A stretch of 64,000 nucleotides of DNA. Origin: Neorhizobium galegae. GTDB lineage: Bacteria; Pseudomonadota; Alphaproteobacteria; Rhizobiales; Rhizobiaceae. The first letter of the stretch is position 1. Each line of letters starts with the position of its first letter. Below, one piece after another: positions 35,016 to 64,000 of this stretch. Under the pieces are notes generated by a model. That model did not search any database. It was not told the origin of the DNA and saw nothing but the letters and a program-made list of their open reading frames with translations. The stretch lies in assembly GCF_021391675.1 (NCBI RefSeq), contig NZ_CP090095.1, forward strand, positions 3,663,501-3,727,500. Direction: 5' to 3'. The translations under genes were made by a program, and so were the position numbers.

Positions 35016-36353
35016 TCACTTGCCTCCAACGTTCAGGAGGATTTGTTTTTCCCGTTCGTTGGAGTTTACATCCTCGTCCTCTGCAGCTGTGATCTGATTT
35101 TTGATTGCCACGGCGTAAAGCTGGATGATTTGCGTGATCTTGTCGTCCCAATCGAAGTGCCTAAGCGCTTTTGCGCGGCCGGCTTCCCCAAGGCGGCGCC
35201 GTAAGTTCACATCATCGGAAAGACGCTGCATCGCTTCGGCGAACCCCGCGACAATATCGTCTCGCGACGTTGGCGGAACGAGGACGCCGCAATCATCATC
35301 CAGATAGTCGTCGGGGCCACCCCACTTTGTGGCGATGACAGGCAGACCTACGGCCATCGCCTCAAGAACGACGGCACCGCCGCATTCGTGAATACTGGGC
35401 ATGACGAAAACATCCGACTGCTGCAGAACCCGCGCACATTCCCGTTGAGGCAAAAATCCGAGAAAGCGTACCCGGCCAACCAAATCCATGGCCTCAACCA
35501 GCGCTTCGAGCGTACTCCGCATCGGGCCGTCACCGACAATATCCAGTTCCACGAGTTCCTCCCGGCTTTTGACGCGCCCAAACGCCAGCAGGAGGAGGTC
35601 CGCCGCCTTCCAGTCAACCAATCTCCCTAGATAAACGAAGCGAACCGGCTTTCCCGGCAGATCGTCGGCGTAGCTGCGTTGCGTCCAAAGTTCGACGTCG
35701 ATGCCATTTTCAACGAGCATTGCCGCCGTGCCGCCGATATTCGTGGGTAGAACCGCGCGTGTTCTCTCATTGGCTGCCAGTAGCAGCGCAGCTTCTCGCT
35801 TGCCGCGCATCAAGAGATGCAGACCGTCTGATAAACGCCGCCCCAGCTTGAACAGTATATCGCCCCAGCCGCTTGTTCGTCCCTTCGGATGAACGCCCGG
35901 CGGATAGGACATGTTGCCGTTCATAGGTCCTATAACCACCGGCGCACCGACGTTGGCGATCAGGGATGGCTCACGTGGCGAGACCGGAATTGGTTGGTGG
36001 ACGACCTGAATACCTAGCTTGTGAACCAGTTCGCGGGTTATGCGACGTGCGGCCATCTGCGTAGCGAGGCGGCTGATATAGCCAACGGTGATGTTGGCGA
36101 GCTGGTCAGGCACGTGCTGCCCCAGCTTCCACATCAGAATATTCAGCCATGTGTCCTTGATAAAATGCATATGGTCTACGGCGTCGGGTGCGAGAGAAGT
36201 CAATTCCTCCCGAGTACGCTCATGAACGACAAGCCACGTCTCTATGCCCCGGGCGCGCAATCGGGTGAAATAATGCCACGGGAGGGAAGCTTCGCCACCG
36301 AACTTCAGGGAGGCGTGTTCCGCGACAATCAGAACCTTATCGATCGAACTCAT
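35016..36353 (-). CDS. GT4-family glycosyltransferase
   Basis: Cytoplasmic GT-B retaining glycosyltransferase, likely for a polysaccharide repeat unit. The 445-residue protein has an N-terminal lobe with LIVAEHASLKFGGEASLPWH, a glycine-rich acceptor loop, then the donor lobe: FVYLGRLVDWKAADLLLLAF, DIVGDGPMRSTLEAL, VRFLGFLPQRECARVLQQSD, and PSIHECGGAVVLEAMAVGLP, the E-x7-E motif region of GT4. ATG 36353 has AAGG seven bases upstream and begins just before the fold; two earlier Mets lack ribosome binding sites. It is divergent from the SGNH-type gene. The sugar is unknown. Confidence 0.85.
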   Translation of the reverse strand: MSSIDKVLIVAEHASLKFGGEASLPWHYFTRLRARGIETWLVVHERTREELTSLAPDAVDHMHFIKDTWLNILMWKLGQHVPDQLANITVGYISRLATQMAARRITRELVHKLGIQVVHQPIPVSPREPSLIANVGAPVVIGPMNGNMSYPPGVHPKGRTSGWGDILFKLGRRLSDGLHLLMRGKREAALLLAANERTRAVLPTNIGGTAAMLVENGIDVELWTQRSYADDLPGKPVRFVYLGRLVDWKAADLLLLAFGRVKSREELVELDIVGDGPMRSTLEALVEAMDLVGRVRFLGFLPQRECARVLQQSDVFVMPSIHECGGAVVLEAMAVGLPVIATKWGGPDDYLDDDCGVLVPPTSRDDIVAGFAEAMQRLSDDVNLRRRLGEAGRAKALRHFDWDDKITQIIQLYAVAIKNQITAAEDEDVNSNEREKQILLNVGGK

Positions 36354-36642
36354 GTTCCAACCTTGCGAGGAGATCGCCGCCATTTTCTGGCACCGCCGAT
36401 ATTTGAGCAACGCCGACTAATGCAGCCTGTGGCTACACCTAAAGAAGGTGAGAGACGCCGTCCGTCGGGCAGGCGGTCGCTTCGGGTTTCCATTGGCTTT
36501 TGTTGACAGCCAGATCGCCGATACCGGAAGGCTTACGCCTTTTGTCCATGATGCTGGACAGGATCTCCGACGTCTATGCTCCCAGGTTGTATTTCTCTAT
36601 CTGCCGATAGTTGTTCTCGCGCTCAATAAAGACGGAATTCTT

Positions 36643-37755
36643 ATGACAGCGATGCGTACCATCATCTTGTCTATGGCATGGCTACTGTCCGGCCCGGCGT
36701 CTTCACAGGAAATCACACCGGGCGATGCCCCGCTGAACTCCGCGCAGGTCTTTTTCACCGGCCATAGCTTGATCGACAATCCCCTGGCCAACTGGGTCGA
36801 GATGATTGCCAAAAGCCGCGGCAAAAATATTGCCTGGGAGCAGCAGATCGTCATTGGATCCCCGCTGAGGTATCGAACGCGAGGTGAGAACGACCAGGAT
36901 TGGAGCTGGGCCGGATACAGGTACGGGAAGAACCGCAACGGCGATCAGATGGATGTCGTCGAGGAACTGCTTCGCCCGCGGCGCATCGGCACGGGGCGCC
37001 CTTACGACACCGTTGTCGCAGCGGAAAACCACAATTTGCTAAACATGATCGTATGGGAAAACGCGATTGGCTATCTGCGCCATTTTCACGACCGCCTTCT
37101 CGACGGCAACCCTAAAGGCCGAACCCTTTATGTCCACACCTGGCTTGGCGTCGACAAGGACAATCCGCAGCCCTGGTTGGAACACGAGACAAACGCTTCG
37201 GTCGTATGGCAATGCGTAGCGGAGAAAGTGAAGCTGACACTGCAAGCTGAAAAGCGCCCGGCCAATCTTTCCGTCGTACCTGCCGGAACGGCTCTCGTGG
37301 AATTGGTGAAAAGGACACTCGACGGGAAGGTTGTCGGCCTCACCGGAAGCAACAGGAAAAAACTCGACCGGATATTCCGCGACGAGGTCCACCTGACCGA
37401 TACAGGCGTCTATTTTGTCGCTGCGGTCCACTACGCCTCGATCTATCGCCAGTCGCCCGAGGGCGCCGCAGCGCCGCCGACCGTGCCCCGGGACCTTGCG
37501 AAGGAGCTGCAGAAGATTGCATGGGGGGTCACCCGAGATTTCTTGCAGCGGGAAAGCTTGCACCCGCCGAGCATGGCAGAATGCCGGCGCGTCATCGTCG
37601 AAAAAGTCTGCCGAAGCTTCTGGGTGCATGTCGGCGAACCGAACGAGGCGAGTGGCTGCCAGAGCTATTTTGCCGAAACCCGTCCGGACCCCGGGGGCAA
37701 CCCCTTCGTCTGGCCGGATCCGAATTGGAAGGCCCTGCCAAAGCCAGCGCCTTAG
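36643..37755 (+). CDS. Secreted SGNH-hydrolase-like protein (paralogue of the right-edge gene)
   Basis: Predicted periplasmic protein of SGNH/GDSL type, perhaps an acyl esterase or acyltransferase acting on polysaccharide. The 370-residue protein has a signal peptide (MRTIILSMAWLLSGPASSQ), then QVFFTGHSLIDNPLANWVEM, where GHSL stands in the place of the GDSL nucleophile motif, VVAAENHNLLN, and DEVHLTDTGVYFVAAVHYAS, the C-terminal block with the expected catalytic Asp and His. ATG 36643 is chosen because the signal peptide begins there; the open frame extends back to 36448. The right-edge gene has SGHSLTDQP and DEVHLTELGSYYVAAV at the equivalent positions, so the two are paralogues. Cys residues in the C-terminal extension (residues about 310-350) may form disulphides. 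Confidence 0.72.
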   Translation: MTAMRTIILSMAWLLSGPASSQEITPGDAPLNSAQVFFTGHSLIDNPLANWVEMIAKSRGKNIAWEQQIVIGSPLRYRTRGENDQDWSWAGYRYGKNRNGDQMDVVEELLRPRRIGTGRPYDTVVAAENHNLLNMIVWENAIGYLRHFHDRLLDGNPKGRTLYVHTWLGVDKDNPQPWLEHETNASVVWQCVAEKVKLTLQAEKRPANLSVVPAGTALVELVKRTLDGKVVGLTGSNRKKLDRIFRDEVHLTDTGVYFVAAVHYASIYRQSPEGAAAPPTVPRDLAKELQKIAWGVTRDFLQRESLHPPSMAECRRVIVEKVCRSFWVHVGEPNEASGCQSYFAETRPDPGGNPFVWPDPNWKALPKPAP

Positions 37756-38148: not shown

Positions 38149-38934
38149 TTAGTTGGCCGCTCCGTATGGGAAGAGGTCATTGAGTTTGTAGGCGACCTCG
38201 GTACGGTTCGTCGCTTTCAGCTTCTTCATGATGTTGCGGATATGGACCTTGACCGTGCTTTCCCGCAGATTGAGCTCGTAGGCGATGATCTTGTTGGCCT
38301 TGCCCTTGCGAAGGGCTTCGACCACCGCTTCCTGGCGCAGCGTGAACATTCCCGAGAGTGGCCGGTGTTCCGCCGCCGCCGTCGCAGCGCTGACCAGGTG
38401 CCGCATGGAGAGGACGCTGCTTGCCGGAACGAAAATCCCGCCGGCAACGGCCAGACCGATCGCTTCCACGCAGACGCCGATGCCGACGCAAGAGGGAATG
38501 AAACCTCGAGCCCCGTATTCCAACATTTTCACGACCTGGGCGAGGTCGTCGGAGTCGGAGAGCACGATGATCGGCGGCGACTTGAACTCGGTCGTCAATT
38601 TCGAGATGTCAGTAGCAAGTGCGGAATCGTCCGCCTTTCGGCCGCCTATATTGAACAGAACGGCCTGGACAGGCGGATAGAGATCTTTTTCTAGTTTCCA
38701 TTCCTCGATGGAGCCGACAGCGCAGACATCCATCTCGAGGCCACGCCCGATGAGGGCTTTGGCAAGGCATTCGCGATCAAGCGCTCTCGCGTCGATGATC
38801 ACAAGGCATCCGTCGTGGTTTGCTCCCTCACTGCCTCGATCATCTCTTTCGGCGAGCTTTGGGATGTCATTCATAATGCGAAAGGATTCTGCCACAGCAG
38901 GAGAACGGCTGTAGCCGCTTGGTGTGGAACTCAT
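38149..38934 (-). CDS. LuxR/NarL-type regulator with degenerate receiver domain
   Basis: DNA-binding transcription regulator. The 261-residue protein has an N-terminal receiver-like domain (about residues 42-165: CLVIIDARALDRECL, AVLFNIGG, PPIIVLSDSDD, YGARGFIPS) and a C-terminal LuxR helix-turn-helix (about 195-255: LRQEAVVEALRKGKANKIIA then STVKVHIRNIMKKLKATNRT). At the expected phosphoacceptor position there is Asn95 (LFNIGG) instead of Asp, and the conserved Lys after GARGF is absent, so phosphorylation control is unlikely. AGGGGG precedes ATG 38934. It lies downstream of the flippase and PKS genes on the same strand and may control this polysaccharide/PKS locus; that is inference. Confidence 0.82.
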   Translation of the reverse strand: MSSTPSGYSRSPAVAESFRIMNDIPKLAERDDRGSEGANHDGCLVIIDARALDRECLAKALIGRGLEMDVCAVGSIEEWKLEKDLYPPVQAVLFNIGGRKADDSALATDISKLTTEFKSPPIIVLSDSDDLAQVVKMLEYGARGFIPSCVGIGVCVEAIGLAVAGGIFVPASSVLSMRHLVSAATAAAEHRPLSGMFTLRQEAVVEALRKGKANKIIAYELNLRESTVKVHIRNIMKKLKATNRTEVAYKLNDLFPYGAAN

Positions 38935-39361: not shown

Positions 39362-40825
39362 TTAAAACAGCGGCCCAGCGTGGTGGAGAATGCCCGTCGC
39401 AAGAACTCCAGCCAGATACCCGACAGGCCAGGCCAACAACACACCCGCTTCATATAGGAAATTGTTGAGGCCGTGACGGTGATTGAAGTAAAGAATCGCC
39501 GGCAATACGGGCAGTCCGTAAAGTGCGGCCGCCCATACTGCGCCCTCGAAGCCGAACAAGTAATAACCCAGGGGCAGGCATGTAAAACTCGAGACCGCGC
39601 GAATGAAATTCATGACGGTCTGGTTACGCGGTTCATTGACGGCGAGATAGACCGCAGACAGGGGACCGAAACGCATGATGAGAAGGCTGAACGATAATAT
39701 CTGGATAATTGGAGCAGCATCTCGATAGCGATCATCATAGAGCGCTTCGATGATTGCCGTGCCGCTCGAATAGATCGCGCCCGCACTTCCGATGAAAACA
39801 AGATCCAGCGGCAATCGCATTTTCCAGAACATGGAGCCGAGCTGCTCCGGGCGTTCCCTTGCAATCCTGCCCAAGGCCGGCATTGCCACGTTTAAGAACA
39901 GCCGGCCACCGGCACCTTCCAGCATCGAGATAAGATTGAAGGCCAGGCTGTAGAAGCCGAGCATGACGGGGCTTGTCCATCCGGCGAGAAAGATACGATC
40001 TCCGTTGGCTGCTATCATCGTGAGGATGGACGACAGCATGATCCAGCGGCCAAACCGAACAAGATCCCTTATCGCCGCAGCTTCCCAGTAAAGGCTGTTG
40101 TGCCGACCCGGCAGCCATATGTGAGTAAGAATAGTGGTCGTCAACGCAGATAGAAGCGTTGCGGCGACGAACGACCAAATCGAGCCTGTGTGCCACGCAA
40201 GCGAGATCCCGACCGCCAGGCTGACGACCTGAGCCACTATCTCGATTAAGGTGACGCGCCCAAGATCGAGGTGCCGGAACGCAGTGATCAGTTTTGTGGA
40301 TTGCAGCCCCATGATCACGGTACAAAAAGACATTCCCATGATGATGGCTGGCAACGACGCGACCGTGTAGACCGATCCGGCTGGGAACAGGCCATACTCG
40401 GCTGCACGCCCGATCCCGATGGCAATCAGGACGCACGCAAACCAGATCAAGCAGCCGTGGATGATTTGCAGCGTCCATGCGGTGTCGAGATAGGACTGGT
40501 CGTCGCCAAACTGGCTCTGTATGGCCGCGGGCCTGAGCCCGAGATCGGACAACATGGCGACCGACACCTGAATCATGGTGGCGACGGCCATGATGCCGAA
40601 CATTTCCGGTATCAGCAGCCTTGTCAGCACCAGGTTGCTTGCGATGCGTACGACCTGCGAGAGGAGATACCCCATCATCGACCAACCTGCGGCCTGGATA
40701 AGGGTCGTGCGAAGACGCCGTTTCGGCGGCTGAACCGTCACGGGCAAAGCGTCGAGAGGCAACGGCTCCCTGGCGTGAGGGGAAGGCACCTGCTTCCAAT
40801 CCGAGGGAACGATTGCGTCAGTCAC
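39362..40825 (-). CDS. Polysaccharide flippase (PST/Wzx family)
   Basis: Inner-membrane exporter of lipid-linked oligosaccharides. The 487-residue protein has about twelve to fourteen hydrophobic segments. After a 45-residue cytoplasmic N-terminus it enters the family start SMMGYLLSQVVRIASNLVLT then RLLIPEMFGIMAVATM, the conserved PST motif, followed by LGLRPAAIQSQFGDDQSYLD. A GTG at 40825 is preferred because GGGGAG lies about seven bases upstream; the frame opens further to 40876. It follows the PKS 3' part by 126 bp on the same strand. It may serve the second polysaccharide; as exoT is absent from the exo cluster here, it could alternatively stand in for ExoT. Confidence 0.83.
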   Translation of the reverse strand: MTDAIVPSDWKQVPSPHAREPLPLDALPVTVQPPKRRLRTTLIQAAGWSMMGYLLSQVVRIASNLVLTRLLIPEMFGIMAVATMIQVSVAMLSDLGLRPAAIQSQFGDDQSYLDTAWTLQIIHGCLIWFACVLIAIGIGRAAEYGLFPAGSVYTVASLPAIIMGMSFCTVIMGLQSTKLITAFRHLDLGRVTLIEIVAQVVSLAVGISLAWHTGSIWSFVAATLLSALTTTILTHIWLPGRHNSLYWEAAAIRDLVRFGRWIMLSSILTMIAANGDRIFLAGWTSPVMLGFYSLAFNLISMLEGAGGRLFLNVAMPALGRIARERPEQLGSMFWKMRLPLDLVFIGSAGAIYSSGTAIIEALYDDRYRDAAPIIQILSFSLLIMRFGPLSAVYLAVNEPRNQTVMNFIRAVSSFTCLPLGYYLFGFEGAVWAAALYGLPVLPAILYFNHRHGLNNFLYEAGVLLAWPVGYLAGVLATGILHHAGPLF

Positions 40826-40951
40826 AGAAGACTCCCCGTTCTTTAAGAAGACTTTCCAGTTTAATGTTGAAGGCACGCAAGCAGCGTGCCCCCGGGCATG
40901 TCATGGCAATCGCGGAAACAGTATTTTCGAGATCCGGCCATCGTTCATCGG

Positions 40952-42874
40952 CTAAGCAATCTCGGCGACCCGGGCCGGCGCTCTGCTTTGAACTTTGGCC
41001 TCCATATCGGCAGTCCCATGGAGCGCAGCCGTGACACCGGAGGCTTCAAGGACAGCACGCATGTGCTCGGAGAGCACGCGAACATACGGATCGAGCACCA
41101 TGCTGTCGTGGTCTCCTGGCACTTCCGAGACCCGCAATTGCGGTACATGCCCCCCCCACCCATTGTCAGGCAGCAGCACATCGCGGTTCTGCTTCAGGTG
41201 ACGGCCGCCACCAAGGCTATAGAAGATATCGGGCTTGGGACGAAACAAAGTGACCTTGCCGGAATAAGCCCTGACATCATACCTGAGCAAGGCTCTCCTG
41301 AACGCCATCTCAATCCTGACATTGTTGAAATACTCAGGCGATTCACCTTGATGCTCCAACTCGAACTTGGCGCGCTGTTGCTCCTGATAGGCACGACGGT
41401 CTCTCAGATACGCGCCAACGAACCTCATCTTATGTCGGCGCATGTCCTGCAATTTCATGCTGATACGGTCGCGCAGGCCCAGCCCCGGCTGCCGCGGCAT
41501 GGGGGTGTCCAGCATGATCACCTGGGAAACCTCTTCTCCTGTATCTTGAAGCTGCCGGGCCATTTCGAAGGCGGTTATGCCGCCACCCGAATAACCGGCG
41601 AGAAGATAGGGTCCGCTGGGTTGCACCGTACGGATTTCGGCGATGTAGTCGGCCGCCATCTCCTCGAACGTCGCGTGCGGCTCGTGGTCGCCGTAAAGTC
41701 CGCGGGCCTGCAATCCGTAGACGGGCCTGTCCGCACCCATGGTCATTGCCAGATGGCGAAGGTTCAGGACATTGCCGAACATGCCGGCGCAGATGAACAG
41801 CGGGGTTGCTTTTGCATTCCTACCGGGGTTCATCAGGACCAGATGAACCGGTTTTGCCGTCGTCGTCGGCAGGCTCGCCGCGAGCTCGGATCCTGCGGCC
41901 TCGCCTCCATCCGGCAATTCCGCAGCGATACGCTCCGCGCATTGGGCGATCGTCGGCGCCTCGAACAGCGTCGATATCGGCAGGTCGAGCGCATATTGTT
42001 TCTTGATCATCCGGAACAGGCGAACCGCGATCAGCGAATGCCCGCCCATGTCGAAGAAACTGTCGTGGATGCCGACCTTGGCGATCCCGAGGAGCTCCCG
42101 CCAATAGCCGGCCAGCGTTTCCTCGATCGGATTGCGCGGCTCGACGAACTCGCTTTCGAGGTCCGGTCTCTCGAAATTGTCGCCGGACGGCGTCGCGGTT
42201 TCGGCAGAGGCGGCAATCCATTCGCGCAGAGTTTCGAGATCGATCGAACTGATGATCGGCTGAGGTTCGGATGTGCCGAGCGCGCGTTGCAGCGCCGAAA
42301 AACCTTCCGCCGGCAGGATACCGTTGCGCACCTGGGTGCCGAGCTTCAACATCGCCGGAGAAAGCGCGGCCGGCTTCGCTTTGGCAGCAGCCGGCGAGTC
42401 CGCCTGGGATGCGAGACCCAGCGCAAGATCGCTCTCCAGCCTGCGCATGACGAATTTTTCGGCTTCGAAAATGACGTTGCCGAGAGGATCGGTGATCGTC
42501 ACGTCGAAGGCCGCATAACCCTCGCCGAAATCGCTGCTGTCGGCGAGTTCCACGATACTGACGACCTCGGCCGGCAGGGGCATGTGGAGGACCACCCGGC
42601 CATAGGTTGCCGGCGCCCAAAGCGAGGTCTCTGCGTCGTAGTCCTTGGCAAGCTGCATGGCAAAGCCGGTCGCGATGTCGAGCAGGCCCGGATGCAGCAG
42701 GACGCCTTTCGCAAGATCGTCGGCAAAGATCGGGTCCAGTTTCAATTCCGCAACAGCCTTGCCGCGCCCCATCGCCATGGAGCGCAGGACGGCCCAGCGG
42801 GGGCCGAAGCGGATATGCTTCTCCTGAACTGCGCGAAGCGCGCTCCGCCTCCGGCGACCCGTGACCCGTCGCAC
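40952..42874 (-). CDS. Type I PKS, 3' part: DH (second half), ACP and thioesterase
   Basis: C-terminal portion of a polyketide synthase separated from its N-terminal part by an apparent frameshift near 42825. It contains the second hot-dog of a dehydratase (IRFGPRWAVL; catalytic Asp66 in LHPGLLDIATG), an acyl carrier domain with phosphopantetheine Ser280 in FFDMGGHSLIAVRLF, and a type I thioesterase (LLAGYSGGGITAFEMA, nucleophile Ser429; final His in VPGDHDSMV). The apparent GTG start at 42874 has no domain-boundary logic: the DH fold begins in the preceding frame. Without the upstream frame this piece has half a dehydratase. Release by the thioesterase would yield a free acid or transfer to an acceptor. 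Confidence 0.85.
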   Translation of the reverse strand: MRRVTGRRRRSALRAVQEKHIRFGPRWAVLRSMAMGRGKAVAELKLDPIFADDLAKGVLLHPGLLDIATGFAMQLAKDYDAETSLWAPATYGRVVLHMPLPAEVVSIVELADSSDFGEGYAAFDVTITDPLGNVIFEAEKFVMRRLESDLALGLASQADSPAAAKAKPAALSPAMLKLGTQVRNGILPAEGFSALQRALGTSEPQPIISSIDLETLREWIAASAETATPSGDNFERPDLESEFVEPRNPIEETLAGYWRELLGIAKVGIHDSFFDMGGHSLIAVRLFRMIKKQYALDLPISTLFEAPTIAQCAERIAAELPDGGEAAGSELAASLPTTTAKPVHLVLMNPGRNAKATPLFICAGMFGNVLNLRHLAMTMGADRPVYGLQARGLYGDHEPHATFEEMAADYIAEIRTVQPSGPYLLAGYSGGGITAFEMARQLQDTGEEVSQVIMLDTPMPRQPGLGLRDRISMKLQDMRRHKMRFVGAYLRDRRAYQEQQRAKFELEHQGESPEYFNNVRIEMAFRRALLRYDVRAYSGKVTLFRPKPDIFYSLGGGRHLKQNRDVLLPDNGWGGHVPQLRVSEVPGDHDSMVLDPYVRVLSEHMRAVLEASGVTAALHGTADMEAKVQSRAPARVAEIA

Positions 42875-52424: not shown

Positions 52425-52426
52425 CC

Positions 52427-53077
52427 ATGCTGCTGGAGGGCATATTCGACCCTTCCGTGTCGGTCGCCGAAGCCGACCTGCTCGGTGACGTTTCGAAACT
52501 CTATCCTGAAGAGAGAACAGCGATCGCCAATGCGGTAAAGAGCCGGCAGCAGGAGTTCACTGCCGGTCGCATCTGCGCCAGGCGGGCCATGGACCATCTG
52601 GGACTGCCTGGAATGGCCATACCCGTTGGATCGGATCGGGCGCCGATCTGGCCGGCCGGGATCGCCGGAAGCATCAGCCACTCCACCACCCGCTGCGTCG
52701 CCGCCATCGGCCGCCATTCGGACGGCATCAAGGCTCTCGGCCTCGATCTTGAGGAAGCGACGCCGCTTGACGACACCTATGCGCAAGAGATCTGCACTCC
52801 GCGCGAGCGACAGTGGCTCAACCGGCAGCAATGGGGCACTCGCGGACGATTGGTGAAAGCGATCTTCAGCGCCAAGGAATGCACCTACAAGTGCCAGTAC
52901 GGCCTGACCCGCACGATGTTCGGCTTCGAGGCCATCCGCATCGAGCTGAACCTCGCGGACGGGCATTTCGCCGCCTATTTCGAGATCGATGTCCCGCCCT
53001 TCAAGACGGGCGACCGGCTGATGGGTCAGATCAGGCTGCGCGACGGGTATGTCGTCGCCGGCATGACTATCCGTTGA
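52427..53077 (+). CDS. 4'-phosphopantetheinyl transferase (EntD/Sfp type)
   Basis: Attaches the phosphopantetheine arm from coenzyme A to carrier domains, probably those of the adjacent NRPS and PKS. The 216-residue protein shows FTAGRICARRAMDHLGL, IAGSISHSTTRCVAAIG, LGLDLEEATPL with the metal-binding Asp107 and Glu109, and FSAKECTYK with Glu151: the EntD-type motif set. It starts 2 bp after the NRPS stop, with AAGG seven bases ahead, so it is in the same transcript. Confidence 0.92.
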   Translation: MLLEGIFDPSVSVAEADLLGDVSKLYPEERTAIANAVKSRQQEFTAGRICARRAMDHLGLPGMAIPVGSDRAPIWPAGIAGSISHSTTRCVAAIGRHSDGIKALGLDLEEATPLDDTYAQEICTPRERQWLNRQQWGTRGRLVKAIFSAKECTYKCQYGLTRTMFGFEAIRIELNLADGHFAAYFEIDVPPFKTGDRLMGQIRLRDGYVVAGMTIR

Positions 53078-53412
53078 AGTCGCCGGCCGTATCCCAAGCG
53101 CCTTCCGCCTGGAACGACGTCCTTCCGGTCCGTTTCACCGTGAGGCGGACGGTCAGCAATGCGTAACCATATTTTCGGGTAACCGACTGCATTCGCTCAA
53201 CGAATTGCATCGGATAACCGTATTGGGCGCAAGGATCAGACTTCAATTGATCCACCAGCCATCAAATGGGCGTAGACATGTTCGCGGTGGCTCCACCTGC
53301 CCCGAAATAGGATGAGCCCGTGCACACTCGAACGGTGTAGCGTGGTCAGCTTAGAACCCTCGGCCCTCGGGCTATGATTGACCGCTTGAGACGCGTCGTC
53401 GGAGGGGAAGCC
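53078..53412. other. Intergenic region between PPTase and GT2 genes
   Basis: These 335 bases have no supported gene. A strong ribosome binding site, GGAGGGGAAG, at the right end belongs to the GT2 gene. A 40-bp span just upstream is an open extension of that gene but lacks a ribosome binding site. Confidence 0.5.
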
Positions 53413-56240: not shown

Positions 56241-56594
56241 CCACACCCCCAACTCAAAACAAGGGCTGTGGCGATCAAGCCTCAGCCGGCGAGGAGGCTC
56301 CTTCGGACGCAGAGCCGAGCATCCAACCGCTGCCAATGTCCATTTCTCAGCGAAACGGTAGCTCCGCCTTACCATCAGAAATATAAAATAAACTCACATG
56401 CTCAATTTTAAGTCATACCTGTAGGTTTACTAAAAACCTGAGCATAAATTGGACGTTATACACAAAGGATTGTACTCAATCATCCTAGCAACAAAAGTAG
56501 GTAATAGGGAGATCATTCTTAGGAGGTAGGCAGGATACATTGTGCCAACCCTCTCCTCGGCTATACTCGTACCGCTGGTAGGGGTTTTTTAACG
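56241..56594. promoter_or_regulatory. Divergent AT-rich intergenic region before the phosphosugar transferase
   Basis: These 354 bases separate the leftward GMC oxidoreductase from the rightward phosphosugar transferase and are A+T rich around 56380-56520. AGGGG lies ten bases before ATG 56595. No gene recognised. Confidence 0.45.
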
Positions 56595-58034
56595 ATGATC
56601 ACACCATTTGAGCCGAACATCGGAAATGACTACATATCGTATGAGCACAAGCCTCCGCGCGGAGGATTGGAATATCATGTCATCGCCTATGTGGCGGCCG
56701 CGACGGACTTCGTCTACCTTCTTGGAGCGACCGGTGTCGGCTTCACGGGCTATCAGTATGCCGTTTTCGGATCTGCGCCCGATCCTTCGCTTTTCATCGG
56801 CATCGGCCTCGTTCTGTCGACGATCTTCGTGCTCGCCATGCACAGCGCCCAGGCCTACAGCCCAGAGAGCATTCAGCTCCTGAGGCCGCAGATCCGGCTG
56901 ATCTGCGTCCTTATCCCAAGCGCCCTTGCCTTCCTGCTGACCGTCATCTTCTTTCTGAAGATCGGCACGACGTTCTCGCGCGGGGCGATCTTGATGACCG
57001 CTTTCATCTCTCTGTCCGGGCTGATCTGCACCCGCCTGTTCTGGCACTGGTATCTGCCATCGGCGGCAGCTGCGGCCTCCTTCAAGATGAAGCGGGTGCT
57101 GCTGATCTGCCATGAGGAGTTTTCGGCCGAACATTGGCAGCATCAGGCCGCCGCAAGCGGCATGACCCTCGCGCAGATCATACGCCTCTCGGATGAAAAT
57201 CTGCTGCCCGCGAACGCCCTGCAGAGACTGAAGCAAAGCGAGACCGACAGCTTAGATGAAGTATTCATCATCTGGCGGGACCCGAACGTCTCCAATCTCG
57301 AATTCTACCTCGGCGAACTCAGGCGCTCTGCTTTGCCGGTCAATGTCATCTTCGATGGCGTCGTCGGTCGTCTGACCAGCGCTCCTGCCCGCAAGATTGG
57401 CAGCATGACCGCCTTTCAGACGCAGCGGCCACCGTTGAACCTCTATGAACGCGGCACCAAGCGCGCATTCGACATCGTCTTCTCGCTGACCGCCATCCTC
57501 TCGCTGTTTCCGTTGCTGCTGGTCGTGGCGATCGCCATCAAATGTGATTCCAAGGGTCCCGTGCTGTTCAGGCAGGTCCGCAAGGGGTACGGCGGCCGCT
57601 CGTTCCGAATCCTGAAATTCCGCAGCATGACCGTCATGGAAGATTCGGGTGATATTCGCCAGGCGACCAGGAAAGATCCCCGCGTCACGAAAGTCGGAGC
57701 TATCATCCGCGCTTCGAGCATAGATGAGTTGCCGCAATTCTGGAACGTCCTTCGCGGCGAGATGTCGATCGTCGGCCCCCGCCCGCATGCGCTCGCCCAT
57801 GACGAACTCTACGACGCTCAGATCGCCAAATACGCCTTCAGGCGGCACGTCAAACCCGGCCTGACCGGCTGGGCGCAGATCAACAATTGCCGCGGCGAGA
57901 CGCCGAACATCGAGAAGATGGAAGAGCGGATATTCCACGACCTCTGGTACATCAACAACTGGTCGTTCTGGCTGGATACGAAGATCGTCCTCCGCACCGC
58001 GATCGAGATCTGCGATTTCGGCAAAGCCTACTGA
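56595..58034 (+). CDS. WcaJ-like polyprenyl-phosphate sugar-phosphotransferase
   Basis: Initiating enzyme of a polysaccharide repeat: moves a sugar-1-phosphate to undecaprenyl phosphate at the inner membrane. The 479-residue protein has four N-terminal helices (about residues 25-150), a central soluble segment, then the catalytic domain at about 285-479: YERGTKRAFDIVFSLTAILS, GPVLFRQVRKGYGGRSFRI, LKFRSMTVME, IRASSIDELPQFWNVLRGEM (Asp-Glu pair), SIVGPRPHA, and KPGLTGWAQIN. Its catalytic half resembles ExoY but with a full N-terminal membrane domain, so this is a second, independent starting enzyme. Convergent with the PLP decarboxylase (27 bp). Confidence 0.92.
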   Translation: MITPFEPNIGNDYISYEHKPPRGGLEYHVIAYVAAATDFVYLLGATGVGFTGYQYAVFGSAPDPSLFIGIGLVLSTIFVLAMHSAQAYSPESIQLLRPQIRLICVLIPSALAFLLTVIFFLKIGTTFSRGAILMTAFISLSGLICTRLFWHWYLPSAAAAASFKMKRVLLICHEEFSAEHWQHQAAASGMTLAQIIRLSDENLLPANALQRLKQSETDSLDEVFIIWRDPNVSNLEFYLGELRRSALPVNVIFDGVVGRLTSAPARKIGSMTAFQTQRPPLNLYERGTKRAFDIVFSLTAILSLFPLLLVVAIAIKCDSKGPVLFRQVRKGYGGRSFRILKFRSMTVMEDSGDIRQATRKDPRVTKVGAIIRASSIDELPQFWNVLRGEMSIVGPRPHALAHDELYDAQIAKYAFRRHVKPGLTGWAQINNCRGETPNIEKMEERIFHDLWYINNWSFWLDTKIVLRTAIEICDFGKAY

Positions 58035-58061
58035 TTTTCACTGCGAGATTTTAGGCAGGCG

Positions 58062-59300
58062 TTATGCCGAGGGGAGCGCCGGAATGTGTGTCACATCGCG
58101 CATGCCGGCGGCCTCGATGAGAACCTCGCAGGGTGGTGCGTGGCTGATGAAATGGATCGGGCTTGCCGTTAGCCCGTAAGCGCCGCTGTTGTGGACGGCA
58201 ACAAGATCACCCTCTTCGATCCGCGGGAGCATCACCCCGACAGCGAGCCGGTCGATCGACGTGCAAAGAGGCCCGACAAGGTTGACTTTCTCCGGTTCGC
58301 CTTGCCCGCCGACCTTGTGCATCGTATAGTTCCGATGCATCACCATTCCGAAATGACCGGAAGCCGGCAGGTGGTTGTTCATGCCGCCATCGCAGATGCC
58401 AATCCGCACGCCGCGCGATTCCTTGACCGAGACGACGCGCGTCAGAAAATATCCGGCCTCGCCGACGAGATACCGCCCGAGTTCGAGCACCAGCCGGGTC
58501 TCGGCAAATTGCGGCAGCGCCTTGAAACCATCGAGATCCGCTGCGATGCCGGCAACGACCGCAGAGAGGTCTAGCGGCAGGTCGCCGTCGTGATAAGGAA
58601 TTCCAAGCCCTGATCCGAAAACCAACTTCTCCGGTCGCGGAATGTAGGTTTCGCAAACCTCCCGGAAAATGCCGATGAAGTTGCGATAATTCTCGCAGAT
58701 TGCCTCCGGCTTCAGGCATTGCGTGCCGGAATAGATGTGCAGTCCGACGATCTTGAGATTGGGCAGAGCCGCAATGTCGGGGATGTCCCTTGCGATATCT
58801 TCCCAGTCTATGCCGAAGGCGGACGGCCGGCCGGCCATCTGGTCGCCGAACCCTTTGGGAACCGTGGTCGGCGCGATACGCACCAGGACATGCTGTATCC
58901 GTCCGAGTTCGCCGGCAACCGCGTTCGCAAGCACCGCCTCACGCACCGATTCCAGGATCAGTTCGCCAATGCCGCCTTCTATTGCCTCACGGATTTCGAA
59001 CGGCCGTTTTCCAGGACCTGTGAAGCTGATGCGCTCGGCTTCCCATCCAGCCGTTATCGCCGTCCGGAACTCCCCGATCGAGGAGACGTCGAGATATTCC
59101 GCCTGGCCCTTCATGAGGGAAAGCAGAGCCGGGTTTGGATTGCTTTTGGCGGCAAAGCTCAATGCGAAGCGTTGCTCGAAAGCTTGCCTCAGGAGCGCTG
59201 CCCGGCTCTCGATTGCCGATGCGAGATAGACATAAGAGGGGGTTCCGAATGATGCCGCCGCACTCTGCAGCCAGACATCGAGCGCCGAAAAATGGTTCAT
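58062..59300 (-). CDS. PLP-dependent decarboxylase, exosortase-A-associated type
   Basis: Alanine-racemase-fold PLP enzyme related to diaminopimelate/ornithine decarboxylases. The 412-residue protein has TPSYVYLASAI, Lys52 in FAAKSNPNPALL (Schiff base), LKIVGLHIYSGTQ, ICDGGMNNHLPASGHFG, and GPLCTSIDRLA containing the catalytic Cys. ATG 59300 overlaps the carrier-protein stop (ATGA). The combination of AMP ligase, carrier protein and this decarboxylase matches gene sets known from exosortase-A exopolysaccharide loci; no exosortase is seen here. The true substrate may be a carrier-bound amino acid rather than free diaminopimelate. Confidence 0.85.
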   Translation of the reverse strand: MNHFSALDVWLQSAAASFGTPSYVYLASAIESRAALLRQAFEQRFALSFAAKSNPNPALLSLMKGQAEYLDVSSIGEFRTAITAGWEAERISFTGPGKRPFEIREAIEGGIGELILESVREAVLANAVAGELGRIQHVLVRIAPTTVPKGFGDQMAGRPSAFGIDWEDIARDIPDIAALPNLKIVGLHIYSGTQCLKPEAICENYRNFIGIFREVCETYIPRPEKLVFGSGLGIPYHDGDLPLDLSAVVAGIAADLDGFKALPQFAETRLVLELGRYLVGEAGYFLTRVVSVKESRGVRIGICDGGMNNHLPASGHFGMVMHRNYTMHKVGGQGEPEKVNLVGPLCTSIDRLAVGVMLPRIEEGDLVAVHNSGAYGLTASPIHFISHAPPCEVLIEAAGMRDVTHIPALPSA

Positions 59301-59533
59301 CAGGCACTGGCTTCCGCAAAACGGATAATCCGGTCCGGCGTATCGAAATTTTCGAGCGTCACGTCTTCGGCGCGAATGGAAAGGCCCGTCGTTTGTTCGA
59401 CAAATGCCAGGAGGTTCACCATCGAAACGGAATCGAGAAGGCCTGAGGAGAACAGTTCGCTCTCGCTGTCGGCATGGGCGATATTCAGGGATTCCCGCAG
59501 ATAACCAATCAACTTTCCATGGGTAAGGCTCAT
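59300..59533 (-). CDS. Free-standing acyl/peptidyl carrier protein
   Basis: 77-residue carrier protein. The predicted four-helix fold carries LFSSGLLDSVSMVNLLAF, in which Ser35 of DSVS is the expected phosphopantetheine site. ATG 59533 overlaps the ligase stop and its own stop overlaps the decarboxylase start, both as ATGA, so the three proteins are made in a coupled way. The ligase upstream probably charges it. The family Ser motif is DS-x-S rather than the primary-metabolism DSLD of AcpP, so it is a specialised carrier. Confidence 0.85.
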   Translation of the reverse strand: MSLTHGKLIGYLRESLNIAHADSESELFSSGLLDSVSMVNLLAFVEQTTGLSIRAEDVTLENFDTPDRIIRFAEASA

Positions 59534-61167
59534 TGCAGGTTCTCCCGTGTTTCGGTCACTTTGATTTGAGCTGCCGGCGGAGGCTCGCTTAAGACATTTT
59601 CCCCGCCTTGCATCCATTCGCGACAAAGGCGCACGACATCCGGCCGCGCCAGCTTGCCGCTCGATGTCCGCGGCATGCTTTCCGGCCAGACATGGAACTG
59701 CCGCGGCACCATGTAGGACGGCATCGCGCGCCGGCAGTAGCGCAGCAGGGCCTCCTCGTCGAATTCGCCGATCGGGGTTATCGCCACATGCACCGTTTGC
59801 CCCAGTTCCTCGTCGTCGACGCCGAAGGCGACCGCCTCCGCCACCGCGCCGCTGCGGCAGACGAGATCCTCGATCTCATCCGGACTGACGCGGAAGCCGC
59901 TGGTCTTGATCATCGCGTCGTTGCGGCCGATGAACCAGAGGTCGCCGTCGGCATCGATCCGGACGATATCGCCGCTATAGACAACCGGTTCGTCGCCGAT
60001 CAGGTGCCAGAGTTCCGGACACGGCCGGATCTTCTGCTCCGTCACCTCCGGCTTGCCCCAATATCCAAGGCTGACAAGCGGGCCGCGATGAACGAGTTCG
60101 CCCTGTTCGCCGGGATGGGCGATGCCTTCGCCATGCTTGATGACATAGACTTCGGCGCCGGGGATCGCCTGACCGATAGCCCCCATCTTGCGGGTAAACT
60201 TCTGCGGCGAGAGATAGGTCGAGCGGAAAGCCTCGGTCAGCCCGTACATCAGATAGACATCCGCATCCGGGAAGACCCGCGGTATCTGCTCCAGGATGTT
60301 GAGCGAAATCTTGCCGCCGGAATTGGTGATCCGCCGGAGCGCCGGAAACTCCACCGGATTGTCCTTCAGCAGACGCACGATCTGGCTCCAGAGCGGCGGC
60401 ACGGCGGCCACCCCGGTCACCCGATGCCGCTGCATGGCCAGGACGATTTCGGTGGCCATCGGCACCGCCTGGTGCACGACGGTACCGCCCATCAACATCA
60501 TTGTCGTCAGCTGGTTCAGGCCGTAGTCGAAGCTGTAGGGCAGGATGCTGAGTAACCGGTCGTCTTCCCTCAGGCCCAGATAGCGCGATACAGAGCGGGC
60601 GCCGGCAACGATGTTGCGATGGGTCAGCATCACACCCTTCGGCATGCCCGTCGAACCGGACGTGTAGATGATCATCGCAAGTTCTGTGTCGAGGCGTGCA
60701 ATCTCGTCGCCAGAAAGATCTTCCGGAAGATGATCCCAGACATCGAATATGGTGTCGGCCGGCAATTTGCCTTTGACCAGGACATTGTCGACCGTGTCGG
60801 GTAGCTTGCGCGCGCCAAGAGCTTCGGCGACCCTTGCCTCGACAATCAGCAGGCGTGCACCACAGTCGTTGGCGACATATTCGAGCTGCTCGACCGTCCA
60901 TTGCGTGTTGACGTTGACGACCACCCCGCCCACCTTGGCGATGGCGAACATGGCGGTGACCTCGGCGATGCTCTTGCGCAGGTGCACGATCACCCGGTCA
61001 CCCGGCCGAATGTTGCGGCTCTGCAGATAACCCGCCAGTCGATCCACGTCGGCCGCAACCGCGGCATAACTCGCAGCGCGATGACCATCGACGATCGCGG
61101 GCTTACCTGGCCTCGAGCCGAGGTTGTCAGCCAGAAGCTGATAGAAGTTGGTGGTCAACGCGTTCAT
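59530..61167 (-). CDS. AMP-forming acyl/aminoacyl ligase, exosortase-A-associated type
   Basis: Adenylate-forming enzyme of the ANL superfamily. The 545-residue protein has YTSGSTGMPKGVMLTHRN (P-loop), LPYSFDYGLNQL, YLMYGLTEAFRSTYLS, VYSGDIVRIDADGDLWFIGR, and a C-terminal Lys in RTSSGKLARPD. GGAGGAG lies seven bases before ATG 61167. It precedes the carrier protein with an ATGA overlap, so its likely job is to load an acyl or amino acid on Ser35 of that carrier. The substrate cannot be read with confidence. Confidence 0.88.
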   Translation of the reverse strand: MNALTTNFYQLLADNLGSRPGKPAIVDGHRAASYAAVAADVDRLAGYLQSRNIRPGDRVIVHLRKSIAEVTAMFAIAKVGGVVVNVNTQWTVEQLEYVANDCGARLLIVEARVAEALGARKLPDTVDNVLVKGKLPADTIFDVWDHLPEDLSGDEIARLDTELAMIIYTSGSTGMPKGVMLTHRNIVAGARSVSRYLGLREDDRLLSILPYSFDYGLNQLTTMMLMGGTVVHQAVPMATEIVLAMQRHRVTGVAAVPPLWSQIVRLLKDNPVEFPALRRITNSGGKISLNILEQIPRVFPDADVYLMYGLTEAFRSTYLSPQKFTRKMGAIGQAIPGAEVYVIKHGEGIAHPGEQGELVHRGPLVSLGYWGKPEVTEQKIRPCPELWHLIGDEPVVYSGDIVRIDADGDLWFIGRNDAMIKTSGFRVSPDEIEDLVCRSGAVAEAVAFGVDDEELGQTVHVAITPIGEFDEEALLRYCRRAMPSYMVPRQFHVWPESMPRTSSGKLARPDVVRLCREWMQGGENVLSEPPPAAQIKVTETRENLQ

Positions 61168-61194
61168 GGCAAACTCCTCCAGCGGATGAGTGGA

Positions 61195-61824
61195 TCAGGG
61201 ACTGGCATCGGTCTTGGTCTGTTCGGTCAAAAACGGGCCGAGGCGGGGATAAATCTTGGCCGGGGAACCGACGACGATCGAATCCGATGGCACGTCGGTA
61301 GAGACCGCTGTATTGGCCCCTATCCGTACCCGGTCGCCGATGCGGATATCGCCGAGAATGGTGGAATTCACCCCGATAAAGACGTCATCGCCGATCCTGG
61401 GTGCACCGGCGCTCATGTTCGTGCCGATCGTGACATTGTGCATGATGCCGCACCGTTTTCCGATCACGGCGTCAGGGTGGATCGAAATCGATCCCTCTAC
61501 GTGGATGATGTGAAAACCCTCGCCGAGCGTCACCTCTGCCGGTATCCAAACGCGCGTAAGCGTCGAAACGACCATGTTGATCGCGCCGTAGATCTTCTGG
61601 AAAAACCGTTTGGCCACGTGGCTCCGAAGGCTCCCCGCCCACCGGCCGAAGCGATAGACCAGCAGCGAGATAAAGCCGGCATTGAGGATCCTCCTGCCGT
61701 GGCGCTCGTAGTCCTTCCGCACCAGTTCGCGAAACGAGGCGGGAGGCGCATGCTGGGATGCCGCACCCTTATGGTCGGCCATCACCGCAGATTGAGGATA
61801 GAGAAAACGAAGCCGTGATGTCAT
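61195..61824 (-). CDS. Serine acetyltransferase-like hexapeptide-repeat transferase
   Basis: Acyl-CoA-dependent O- or N-acyltransferase with left-handed beta-helix. The 209-residue protein has an N-terminal helical region (RELVRKDYERHGRRIL) and then hexapeptide turns: IHPDAVIGKRCGIMHNVTIG, APRIGDDVFIGVNSTILG, DIRIGDRVRIGANTAV, then VVGSPAKIYPRLG, the CysE/NodL-type ending. His is kept in GIMHNVTIG. It overlaps GT61 upstream (ATGA) and is 27 bp before the ligase. Probably acetylates a sugar; serine is an alternative acceptor. Confidence 0.82.
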   Translation of the reverse strand: MTSRLRFLYPQSAVMADHKGAASQHAPPASFRELVRKDYERHGRRILNAGFISLLVYRFGRWAGSLRSHVAKRFFQKIYGAINMVVSTLTRVWIPAEVTLGEGFHIIHVEGSISIHPDAVIGKRCGIMHNVTIGTNMSAGAPRIGDDVFIGVNSTILGDIRIGDRVRIGANTAVSTDVPSDSIVVGSPAKIYPRLGPFLTEQTKTDASP

Positions 61825-63002
61825 GCGAGTACCATCTCCAACGTGCGGTCGATATCACTCCACTCGACCCGAAAGTTCTCGCAGGTTCCCTCGCCGACGA
61901 CGAAGGCATAGCCTTGTCCCTGACGATCGGTCATGACCTTGAGAACTGAAACCACCCGATCTGCCGGCTGGATGACGAACAGGGCGGAATCCGGCGGCAT
62001 GACCGTCAGTCCGTGAACCAGGTGGCTGCCTTCGACGCCGGCGACGACCCGCGCTCCGGCACAGGCGTGGATGATGTCGTCGACCGACGAGGCTAACGGA
62101 TCGATGATCCGGAATCCGTATTTCTTCGCGAACTGTTCGGCGATATCGGACTCGTTTGACAGCAGGCGGTTTTCGCCCTTGTTACCCCGCAGGATGAAGA
62201 CGCCGGGATGAACGGGAAAAGGGGGCGCCGATGCCAGAAGCTTTTCTCGAACCTGATCGGCTCGTTTCTTCTTGCCCTCGTTCTGCCCCTTGTCCCTGAA
62301 GAGGATGACCTCGTCGAAATGGACGTCGCTGACATAGATCGGCTTGAGATCGAGTTTGGAGGCATATTGCGGCTCGTGCCCCCGCGTGATCGGCCGCGTC
62401 GTTATCGGAGCTTCGTATTGGTCCGCCAGCGAATAGGTCAGGCAATCATCCGAAAGCCAGTTGCCGAACCAGCGATTGCCGACCCAGCTCTCGAACAGTG
62501 CACCGCTGGTCGAGTGCTTGGGAGGTACATAGACAGGCAGCCGACGGCTGCGGGGTCTGAGGCTCCTCGAACACTTCGGCGCGTAGAGAACGCCATCGAT
62601 GAGGTCGACATTCTTCATCCGGTAGCCGACCGTGGCCTCCTGAGTGGTTTCATAGTTTCCACGAAAGCCCTTCACGACCTCGGTGACCGGCCCGAATTGA
62701 GTGCCCTTTATACGGTCGAGATGATGCGGCAAAAACTTTGCGGGACGAATGAAGCGCCGGGTCTGCGGGGCAATCGTCCAGCGATCGACGGCAACCGCTT
62801 CGATATCCGGGAAAGGCATCCCGGCAATCTTTCTCAGAGAATGTACAATCGGCAAAAAAGATATCAACCAACTATCCTCGCAAGGTACAATCAGCATCGG
62901 ACAAGGGGAGTTTTCCTTGTGCGAAACTCCGCATCCCGACCGAGATATTCGCATAGCTGCCAATGGTTTCGCCGCTAGTCTTTGGGCTATCGGGTTACTC
63001 AT
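61821..63002 (-). CDS. GT61-family (DUF563) glycosyltransferase
   Basis: Predicted glycosyltransferase of the GT61 family. The 393-residue protein shows family landmarks in its C-terminal half: GVFILRGNKGENRLLSNESD, KKYGFRIIDPLASSVDDIIH, and CAGARVVAGVEGSHLVHGLT, where the usual HGA-L-N is changed to EGSHLVHG. It lies in the leftward operon between the right-edge SGNH gene (85 bp upstream) and the acetyltransferase (ATGA overlap). The start at 63002 is the longest; Mets at 62954 and 62897 are alternatives and none has a clear ribosome binding site. Confidence 0.75.
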   Translation of the reverse strand: MSNPIAQRLAAKPLAAMRISRSGCGVSHKENSPCPMLIVPCEDSWLISFLPIVHSLRKIAGMPFPDIEAVAVDRWTIAPQTRRFIRPAKFLPHHLDRIKGTQFGPVTEVVKGFRGNYETTQEATVGYRMKNVDLIDGVLYAPKCSRSLRPRSRRLPVYVPPKHSTSGALFESWVGNRWFGNWLSDDCLTYSLADQYEAPITTRPITRGHEPQYASKLDLKPIYVSDVHFDEVILFRDKGQNEGKKKRADQVREKLLASAPPFPVHPGVFILRGNKGENRLLSNESDIAEQFAKKYGFRIIDPLASSVDDIIHACAGARVVAGVEGSHLVHGLTVMPPDSALFVIQPADRVVSVLKVMTDRQGQGYAFVVGEGTCENFRVEWSDIDRTLEMVLA

Positions 63003-63087
63003 TTCGGCGTATCAGGCAACGTAGGCTCCCTAGCCCTCCCGAAGCGCCGCTATCGGCTCTGAACTGAGGGCATCCACCTTAGCCGTT

Positions 63088-64000
63088 TCACTCCAGGCCT
63101 TTCCTGAAGCGCCAGGTAAAACGGACAATATTCCGGATGCATAGCAACTGCGTAATGAGATAGCTGCCCTCACGAGGGTAGGCGCGCGCCACATAGTTCG
63201 CGTAGTGGGACGCGAAGGCGAGCGAGACCGGCGCCTCGCAATCGCCCGCTTCATTCATCTTGTTTGCCCGATAGCGTTGCATGAAGTCGGCAGCAAATAG
63301 CCTCAGCGCGTCGGCTTGTCGGGCATCCAGCAAGGCGGGCGGCCGTTGCCGACGGATATCCACTCCGTAGATCGCCGCGAAGCTTACGGCGGCCACGTAG
63401 TAAGAGCCAAGTTCCGTCAGATGAACCTCATCGGAGAAGATTGCTTTCAAGCGGTCCGCCGCATTCCAGTCCTCGAATCCGCTAAAGGCTGGCTCGGACG
63501 CCAGGCGCGAGACGAGCTCGGCAAGCGCAAGCGATGTTGGAATGAAGCGAATATGGTTTTTACGGCCAGCCGCCCCGATCTTATCGTTTACCCGGTTTAC
63601 GACGCATCGCCAGACGGGCAGAGCCAGCCTCTCATACTCGATCCACGGATGCGGATCCGCTAAAGACGAAAGGCTTATCCAGGGGGTGTAGAAGTATGTG
63701 ATCCCGGCTGGATTTGCCGCGGTGAACGCTTGGTGGTAGCCATGGAGGTAACGAACAGTTTCGCTCCACATCAACGCATCCAGAACACGATGTTGTTCGG
63801 TGATGATGAGAACGTTGTAAGGCTCGTCGGTCAATCGGACGAGCCCGCCGGCGGTTCGCTGCAGGATTGAAGAACCGGTCACGTTCTCCAACCTCAAGGA
63901 CACGGAAATCCCTTCCTGCCGGGCGATCCCTTTCAAATGATCAGGATAGGGTTGATCTGTCAGGCTGTGCCCGGACAGCAGGATATGGTCTCGGTTGGCC
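63088..64000 (-). CDS. SGNH-hydrolase-like protein, 5' end beyond right edge (paralogue of 36643-37755)
   Basis: Partial gene; the frame is open to the right edge, reading DHILLSGHSLTDQPYPDHLK, so the N-terminus is outside the window. The GHSL block matches TGHSLIDNP of the gene at 36643-37755, and FSDEVHLTELGSYYVAAVSF matches its DEVHLTDTGVYFVAAV block with the expected catalytic Asp-Xaa-Xaa-His. The central ITEQHRVLDALMW parallels VAAENHNLLNMIVW. The visible part is 304 codons. It is first in the visible leftward operon with GT61, the acetyltransferase, the ligase, the carrier and the decarboxylase. Likely periplasmic and acting on acyl groups of the polysaccharide; not proved. Confidence 0.72.
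   Translation of the reverse strand, partial: ANRDHILLSGHSLTDQPYPDHLKGIARQEGISVSLRLENVTGSSILQRTAGGLVRLTDEPYNVLIITEQHRVLDALMWSETVRYLHGYHQAFTAANPAGITYFYTPWISLSSLADPHPWIEYERLALPVWRCVVNRVNDKIGAAGRKNHIRFIPTSLALAELVSRLASEPAFSGFEDWNAADRLKAIFSDEVHLTELGSYYVAAVSFAAIYGVDIRRQRPPALLDARQADALRLFAADFMQRYRANKMNEAGDCEAPVSLAFASHYANYVARAYPREGSYLITQLLCIRNIVRFTWRFRKGLE

Follow-up and report, generated by a model that had tools for sequence, protein, structure and literature searches.

A polysaccharide locus of Neorhizobium galegae with nonribosomal peptide synthetase, polyketide synthase and aminoacyl carrier genes

The 64,000-nucleotide stretch of the Neorhizobium galegae genome analyzed here (the window) contains at positions 35016–64000 an (exo)polysaccharide locus which includes a nonribosomal peptide synthetase (NRPS), a type I polyketide synthase (PKS), a 4'-phosphopantetheinyl transferase (PPTase) and a trio of ligase, carrier protein and decarboxylase. 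This content was confirmed by Pfam and NCBIfam scans of the translated open reading frames (ORFs), and the scans upheld the mix of glycosyltransferases (GTs), flippase, initiating transferase, acetyltransferase and thiotemplate genes that an earlier note had read from the DNA alone. The note did not mention the formyltransferase and luciferase-like monooxygenase domains, the GMC oxidoreductase, the LuxR-type regulator and the frame break in the PKS. The block forms a single evolutionary unit and a fixed cassette within polysaccharide loci, and we see an even chance that it is an exopolysaccharide locus equipped with its own thiotemplate machinery for acyl groups, the product of which builds or decorates the polymer.

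Results and Discussion

Conservation of the block within the genus

Of 57 genomes searched in the genus, 18 including our own encode a full-length NRPS, and 12 of the other 17 NRPS-bearing genomes were taken for a comparison of the gene order. In all 12 relatives the genes for Wzx, PKS, NRPS, PPTase, GT2, GMC oxidoreductase, initiating transferase, decarboxylase, carrier, ligase, hexapeptide transferase, GT61 and a Wza follow each other in the same order, with about 5 kb extra between GMC and GT2 in relative G045, and the LuxR-type regulator was found in every one of them. The position of the window's GT4 and of the first SGNH-like protein varies among the relatives: a near-identical copy of this GT4 (35016..36410) occurs in relative G051 alone, while 10 of the other 11 carry a 27–34% identical GT4 between luxR and wzx and one (G002) has none at this place. 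NRPS, PKS, decarboxylase, GMC and Wzx were compared across 35 genomes of the genus: 10 have orthologues of all five and the other 25 have none, and the chance of another gene present in 10 genomes matching this pattern exactly is 5e-9, ignoring relatedness. Weaker relatives of PKS, GMC and decarboxylase (29–48% identity) occur elsewhere. Synteny of the whole block among relatives, suggested in the earlier note as a check, thus holds both for the order (12/12) and, for five genes, for presence and absence (35/35).

Recurrence in other bacteria

Scanning a collection of species genomes revealed at least 581 stretches encoding some relative of the NRPS, and the best 80 (46–91% identity), mostly from Rhodobacterales and not independent samples, were examined. 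Eight polysaccharide families were counted within about 10 kb, using our own hidden Markov models (HMMs) built from the analyzed proteins and not Pfam. These models miss distant genes, as two annotated GT2 genes in the Aliiroseovarius locus (L058) were not detected, and they can over-call, as one of two GT4-type matches in genome G382 has no Pfam family. All-ORF clustering of the 80 loci split large families and the counts were made without it. At least one polysaccharide family lies near the NRPS in 78 of the 80 loci and at least two in 67, both misses being contigs of about 7 kb; a PKS was found in 69 and a PPTase in 67. For the 59 loci of at least 24 kb the numbers are 59 (at least one family), 56 (at least two), 58 (PKS) and 56 (PPTase). 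Among 20 control stretches of 20 kb, taken at fixed positions from relatives, one contains at least one family and none contains two or more; one of the 20 also has a PKS-type match. Four further loci, from Streptomyces (two), Nostoc and B. glumae, encode NRPS with a luciferase-like monooxygenase (LLM) in which the match starts after the formyltransferase, and none of these four, two of which are near-identical, has any of the eight families nearby. In 54 of 70 loci our own models also placed a GT2-type ORF no more than 2 kb from the NRPS.

We further searched 384 additional genomes sampled evenly across the class, and six full-length NRPS homologues were obtained. Four of them (49–52% identity) have two to five polysaccharide families nearby, and the homologue in G382 (44%) is accompanied by a LuxR regulator, an epimerase, a DegT aminotransferase, a UDP-sugar dehydrogenase and the two GT4-type matches mentioned above; the sixth is discussed below. 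Plasmid records covering 80% or more of the NRPS numbered 17; seven of these were examined, plus a Deinococcus record just under 80%. On the annotated plasmids of Shinella, Ruegeria, Paracoccus, Aminobacter, Parasedimentitalea and Deinococcus the NRPS/PKS pair is surrounded by flippases, sugar transferases, GTs or nucleotide-sugar genes, the Deinococcus relative having no formyltransferase on the same frame, and an unannotated Methylobacterium record shows two GT4-type matches. A second annotated NRPS gene of 3.9 kb stands among glycosyltransferases in the plasmid locus of Paracoccus sp. Arc7-R13 (L057:2775-6653).

The recurrence of the cassette in the 80 best loci includes Hydrogenophaga, a member of the Myxococcales and a Deltaproteobacteria metagenome-assembled genome. 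Motif counts omit 10 of 87 NRPS loci, in which no ORF has both search motifs. In a tree of 76 rows, made by a quick method without bootstrap, with long control branches and with 4 of the 77 NRPS rows and the control L165 omitted, the NRPS of Hydrogenophaga pseudoflava (Betaproteobacteria, L081) is nested among Paracoccaceae (SH-aLRT 96), which is consistent with a transfer of the NRPS between classes, likely by horizontal transfer.

Gene content of the locus

The following features were assigned, with family matches or other support in brackets.

35016..36410, minus strand: GT4 glycosyltransferase (PF00534, 1e-35)
36448..37755, plus strand: putative periplasmic SGNH-like protein 1 (GHSL...DxVH motifs, weak model; no Pfam match)
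38149..38934, minus strand: LuxR-type (GerE) regulator (PF00196, 3.8e-16)
39362..40876, minus strand: Wzx-type oligosaccharide flippase (PF13440, 1.5e-35)
40952..42874, minus strand: PKS 3' part with second half of DH, carrier and thioesterase (PF14765, PF00550, PF00975; motifs)
42742..47541, minus strand: PKS 5' part with KS, AT, KR and first half of DH (PF00109, PF00698, PF08659, PF21089)
47790..52424, plus strand: NRPS with formyltransferase, adenylation (A) domain with embedded LLM, and peptidyl carrier protein (PCP) (PF00551, PF00501, PF00296, PF00550; TIGR04020)
52427..53077, plus strand: PPTase (PF17837, PF01648)
53374..54609, plus strand: GT2 glycosyltransferase, adjoining the NRPS/PPTase pair (PF13641, 2.7e-18)
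54651..56375, minus strand: GMC oxidoreductase (PF05199, PF00732)
56595..58034, plus strand: initiating polyprenyl-phosphate sugar transferase (PF02397, 3e-68; TIGR03025, 374.2 bits, cut-off 295.55)
58062..59300, minus strand: pyridoxal phosphate (PLP) decarboxylase (PF02784/PF00278; BtrK as closest solved relative)
59300..59626, minus strand: stand-alone carrier protein (PF00550, 23.9 bits, cut-off 20.8)
59530..61167, minus strand: AMP-forming acyl/aminoacyl ligase (PF00501, 5.8e-81; TIGR03098, 535 bits, cut-off 592)
61195..61824, minus strand: hexapeptide-repeat acyltransferase, serine acetyltransferase-like (PF00132, 1.6e-14; EpsC/CysE 96/77 bits, below cut-offs)
61821..63002, minus strand: GT61 glycosyltransferase (PF04577, 9.5e-14)
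63088..64000, minus strand: putative SGNH-like protein 2, continuing past the window end (similarity to relatives' SGNH1; motifs)

The locus extends beyond the window, as the next 10 kb of the genome (stretch L061, window coordinate = 63500 + L061 position) encode Wza (PF02563), a GT2, a GT4 and a Wzy-type polymerase/ligase (PF04932). The initiating sugar transferase passes the broader TIGR03025 and stays under the WcaJ cut-off (TIGR03023, 398.6 < 410.75 bits). No near match was obtained when a phage collection was searched with 42742–52424.

The NRPS

The NRPS consists of a formyltransferase, a region of about 230 residues without Pfam match, an A domain with the LLM inserted, and a PCP. With 471.5 bits against TIGR04020 (cut-off 244.45) the LLM domain is a member of the MupA/Atu3671 family. 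A formyltransferase fold with the N-x-H ... D pattern precedes A domain and PCP, the arrangement of an LgrA-like formylating starter module, and LgrA is the best PDB match of the whole protein. Alignment to GrsA (1amu) gave the A-domain code DILQFGMIW, which agrees at seven of nine positions with DILQLGLIW, presumably the code for glycine, and may point to a glycine-like specificity. Residues 1–560 were modelled and about 310–545, between formyltransferase and A domain, fold confidently. The lists from a structure search with this model were filled by formyltransferase matches, and it is an impression only that residues 310–545 may resemble the C-terminal half of a condensation domain. For an LLM domain an α-hydroxylation has been proposed in the palmerolide paper.

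The PKS

KS, AT, KR, DH, carrier and TE domains of a single module are all present according to Pfam and motifs, and no separate ER domain was reported by Pfam. Due to a frame change near 42.84 kb, inside the DH, the window copy (40952–47541) is split into two ORFs, and its domains do not share a single frame as they would in an intact type I modular PKS with TE. In all 12 relatives examined the PKS is one open frame of 2186–2257 residues, including G051 with its 98% identical NRPS. The window copy is thus broken or mis-assembled, either by a recent mutation or by a sequencing or assembly error, and a programmed frameshift was rejected on the grounds of the single frame in all 12 relatives. 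Because of the broken frame the sequenced strain may not make the group derived from the PKS, if the break is real and not an error of sequencing. A distinct PKS of about 2430–2510 residues (about 30% identity), which we take to be the size of RkpA, occurs in 11 of 25 genus members without the locus and in 3 of 10 with it, so that the two PKS are separate genes.

Ligase, carrier and decarboxylase

The closest PDB entries to the decarboxylase are those of BtrK (7ru7, 1.8e-61; 2j66, 2e-61), followed by diaminopimelate decarboxylases (3.6e-42), which is a lead of about 19 orders of magnitude in E-value at the level of sequence and fits a BtrK-like enzyme that would act on a carrier-bound aminoacyl group. 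TIGR03098 for the ligase (535 < 592 bits) and TIGR03099 for the decarboxylase (359 < 478 bits) are the best-scoring NCBIfam families. Both families belong to exosortase-A loci, but here the scores stay under the cut-offs and the genome has no match to the exosortase family PF09721, so that an exosortase-A (PEP-CTERM/XrtA) type of locus was rejected. An exosortase XrtD (VPLPA-CTERM) is encoded about 13–14 kb from the NRPS in Ruegeria (L056:5146-6798) and Aliiroseovarius (L058:38407-40008).

Proposed role and alternatives

The small assembly line with one glycine-type A domain and one PKS module, together with the BtrK-like decarboxylase, would fit small carrier-borne acyl groups, and we propose the following chemistry. 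The PPTase would arm the carriers. The NRPS would load glycine, N-formylate it and then oxidize it via the embedded flavin mononucleotide monooxygenase, and the PKS would add one malonyl unit, reduce it and perhaps dehydrate it; a short C4 formamido-acyl group would then be passed on by the PKS thioesterase. Alongside this, an amino acid would be loaded onto the small carrier by the ligase, followed by decarboxylation through the BtrK-like enzyme to a β- or γ-aminoacyl carrier. One or both acyl groups might then be joined to the repeat unit before flipping by Wzx and export through Wza, with the TE, the hexapeptide acyltransferase and the neighboring GT2 as candidates for the attachment. The earlier note had suggested that the thiotemplate products are used as substituents on a secreted polymer instead of being released; the genes are indeed fixed within the polysaccharide locus (12/12, 35/35, 78/80), and the rest of this interpretation is well motivated but unproven.

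Several points weigh against this role. From the sequence no gene can be singled out as the enzyme needed to bring the acyl group from its carrier onto the sugar. A library search for DILQLGLIW gave nothing, and the 80 loci are the best-scoring ones, mostly from Rhodobacterales. The spacing of the DH motif is one residue longer than in what we take to be the canonical motif in 59 of 60 ORFs showing the pattern (99 sequences scanned), so that dehydration by the PKS is uncertain. The decarboxylase was found in 3 of the 80 wider loci, a lower bound since it lies just beyond 10 kb in G045, and is probably a gene of the rhizobial version and not of the core. Finally, there are divergent relatives in which no polysaccharide genes were detected close by. 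In G441 (44% identity, L171/L172), the sixth homologue from the class, the NRPS/PKS pair adjoins ZnuA, ABC-3, TPP-enzyme, DctP (TRAP-type) and MFS genes, and no polysaccharide family was detected within 15 kb by our own models or among 10 ORFs scanned with Pfam. In Aliiroseovarius (42%) annotated glycosyltransferases are found only at least about 16 kb away, with the XrtD about 14 kb downstream. These two cases indicate that, in a divergent branch, the NRPS/PKS pair and its product are able to do without a polysaccharide locus. NRPS/PKS genes away from polysaccharide genes, named in the earlier note as an observation that would contradict it, thus occur in G441 and nearly in Aliiroseovarius, whereas all 59 loci of at least 24 kb in the closer family have polysaccharide genes nearby. 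The stand-alone pair of G441 perhaps makes a free metal-related metabolite.

It is also conceivable, but in our view unlikely, that NRPS and PKS produce a small free metabolite, either a signal or a metal-binding compound, which is merely co-regulated with a biofilm polysaccharide, both serving surface life. The transport genes beside the G441 pair (ZnuA/ABC-3 type, MFS, TRAP-type binding protein) and the likewise missing close polysaccharide genes in Aliiroseovarius would agree with this, as would the type I thioesterase at the end of the PKS, since such domains often release free acids. Furthermore, the NRPS-like/T1PKS cluster of Aquicoccus porphyridii is listed as ordinary secondary metabolism in the Rhodoalgimonas paper. 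On the other hand, the genes are interleaved with priming transferase, flippase and GTs in all 12 relatives, the GT2-type ORF is close to the NRPS in most loci (54/70), and the scanned genes of 35016–64000 include no reported siderophore-receptor or metabolite-exporter family.

A third possibility, rather improbable, is that the PKS supplies a lipid-like molecule on which the polymer is anchored or primed, as might be supposed for RkpA/WcbR, and not a substituent. In the rkp and wcb capsule loci a type I PKS gene does occur together with genes that make and export the polysaccharide (PMC3908369). With one KR-DH module, a glycine-type NRPS and no ER reported by Pfam, a long saturated chain is unlikely here, and the PKS of presumed RkpA size (about 30% identity) is a separate gene in the genus. 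That thiotemplate and polysaccharide genes are two unrelated insertions together by chance is hardly credible and was rejected by co-occurrence and neighborhood controls, as the patchy distribution of the NRPS (18/57 same-genus and 6/384 other class genomes) is outweighed by the all-or-none presence in 35 genomes (5e-9, ignoring relatedness) and by the polysaccharide genes near the NRPS in 78 of the 80 top-scoring loci, with Hydrogenophaga, Myxococcales and the Deltaproteobacteria genome among them.

Extending the substituent role to the whole family, we would tentatively suggest, with somewhat less than even confidence, that one-module formylglycine NRPS/PKS systems make a covalent substituent of extracellular polysaccharides and not a free product in Alphaproteobacteria, a betaproteobacterium, Myxococcales, Deltaproteobacteria and Deinococcus. 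If this is true, a class of predicted clusters with the generic label NRPS/T1PKS would have been misread as makers of secreted small molecules and would instead be polymer-decoration systems, which could explain the difficulty of finding their free metabolites. The biofilm matrix might then also gain, through the N-formyl and monooxygenase chemistry, hydroxamate-like or amido groups that bind metals. It would also tie natural-product enzymology to matrix polysaccharide synthesis and predict new acyl and aminoacyl groups on biofilm polymers.

Relation to known systems

A type I PKS gene within a polysaccharide synthesis and export locus is already known from rkp in Sinorhizobium and wcb in Burkholderia, and the likeness to our locus lies in this RkpA/WcbR gene within a capsule locus (PMC3908369). 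The present locus is set apart through the single KS-AT-KR-DH-carrier-TE module with an NRPS partner. To our knowledge the rkp and wcb loci have no formyltransferase-A-monooxygenase-PCP partner.

The butirosin side-chain pathway (BtrI/BtrJ/BtrK/BtrO/BtrH), which provides with BtrK the best solved relative of our decarboxylase, follows a carrier-bound aminoacyl logic ending on a sugar and uses an ATP-grasp ligase, with BtrK acting on glutamate attached to the ACP. The locus described here differs from it in the AMP-forming ligase, in the polysaccharide setting and in that no BtrH-type gene was recognized. Linear gramicidin LgrA (formyltransferase-A-PCP) shows the same fusion of a formyltransferase ahead of the A domain, whereas here an embedded LLM, a glycine-like code, a single module and a PKS partner are found. 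The LLM domain is shared with the MupA/Atu3671 type of NRPS (TIGR04020), represented by the four loci without polysaccharide families. In vicenistatin biosynthesis VinN, VinL and VinO likewise combine an adenylation enzyme, a stand-alone carrier and a PLP decarboxylase acting on a carrier-bound amino acid, but that trio starts a free macrolactam and ours stands within a polysaccharide locus (PMC11284099).

The Rhodoalgimonas paper compares its NRPS-like/T1PKS cluster as a secondary-metabolite cluster with others including that of Aquicoccus porphyridii, and the word exopolysaccharide is absent from the main text. Aquicoccus porphyridii is among our 80 loci (L099), and the printed cluster may be the same as L099. 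In a literature search with subscription journals mostly outside its reach, we recognized among the papers listed none linking a formyltransferase/LLM NRPS to a polysaccharide.

SGNH-like proteins and flanking regions

The reading of two genes as SGNH proteins in the earlier note is plausible but unproven. Both proteins and their relatives have GHSL and DxVH motifs in common, and SGNH-like protein 2 is 29–33% identical to the relatives' SGNH1 across 242–275 residues. Neither protein has a Pfam match and a PDB sequence-profile search was unconvincing (best E 0.9). The top two structure matches of a low-confidence model (pLDDT 50), with E of only about 0.02, are enzymes which we take to have the SGNH fold. 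SGNH-like protein 1 probably starts at about 36650, with an N-terminus that looks by eye like a signal peptide.

Window positions 14339–34448, adjoining the locus, encode a 4364-residue RTX/cadherin-type protein (PF00353, PF19116), type I secretion genes (OEP, HlyD, ABC) and a BTLCP (Peptidase_C93) protease, a system that we take to resemble the LapA/LapG-like biofilm adhesin system. The N-terminus of the RTX/cadherin-type protein has matches near the locus in 4 of the 12 relatives. A second polysaccharide locus is located at 398–11417 of the window, with an acyltransferase, GT2s, a pyruvyl transferase, a sugar transferase, Wza, Wzy and another GMC oxidoreductase.

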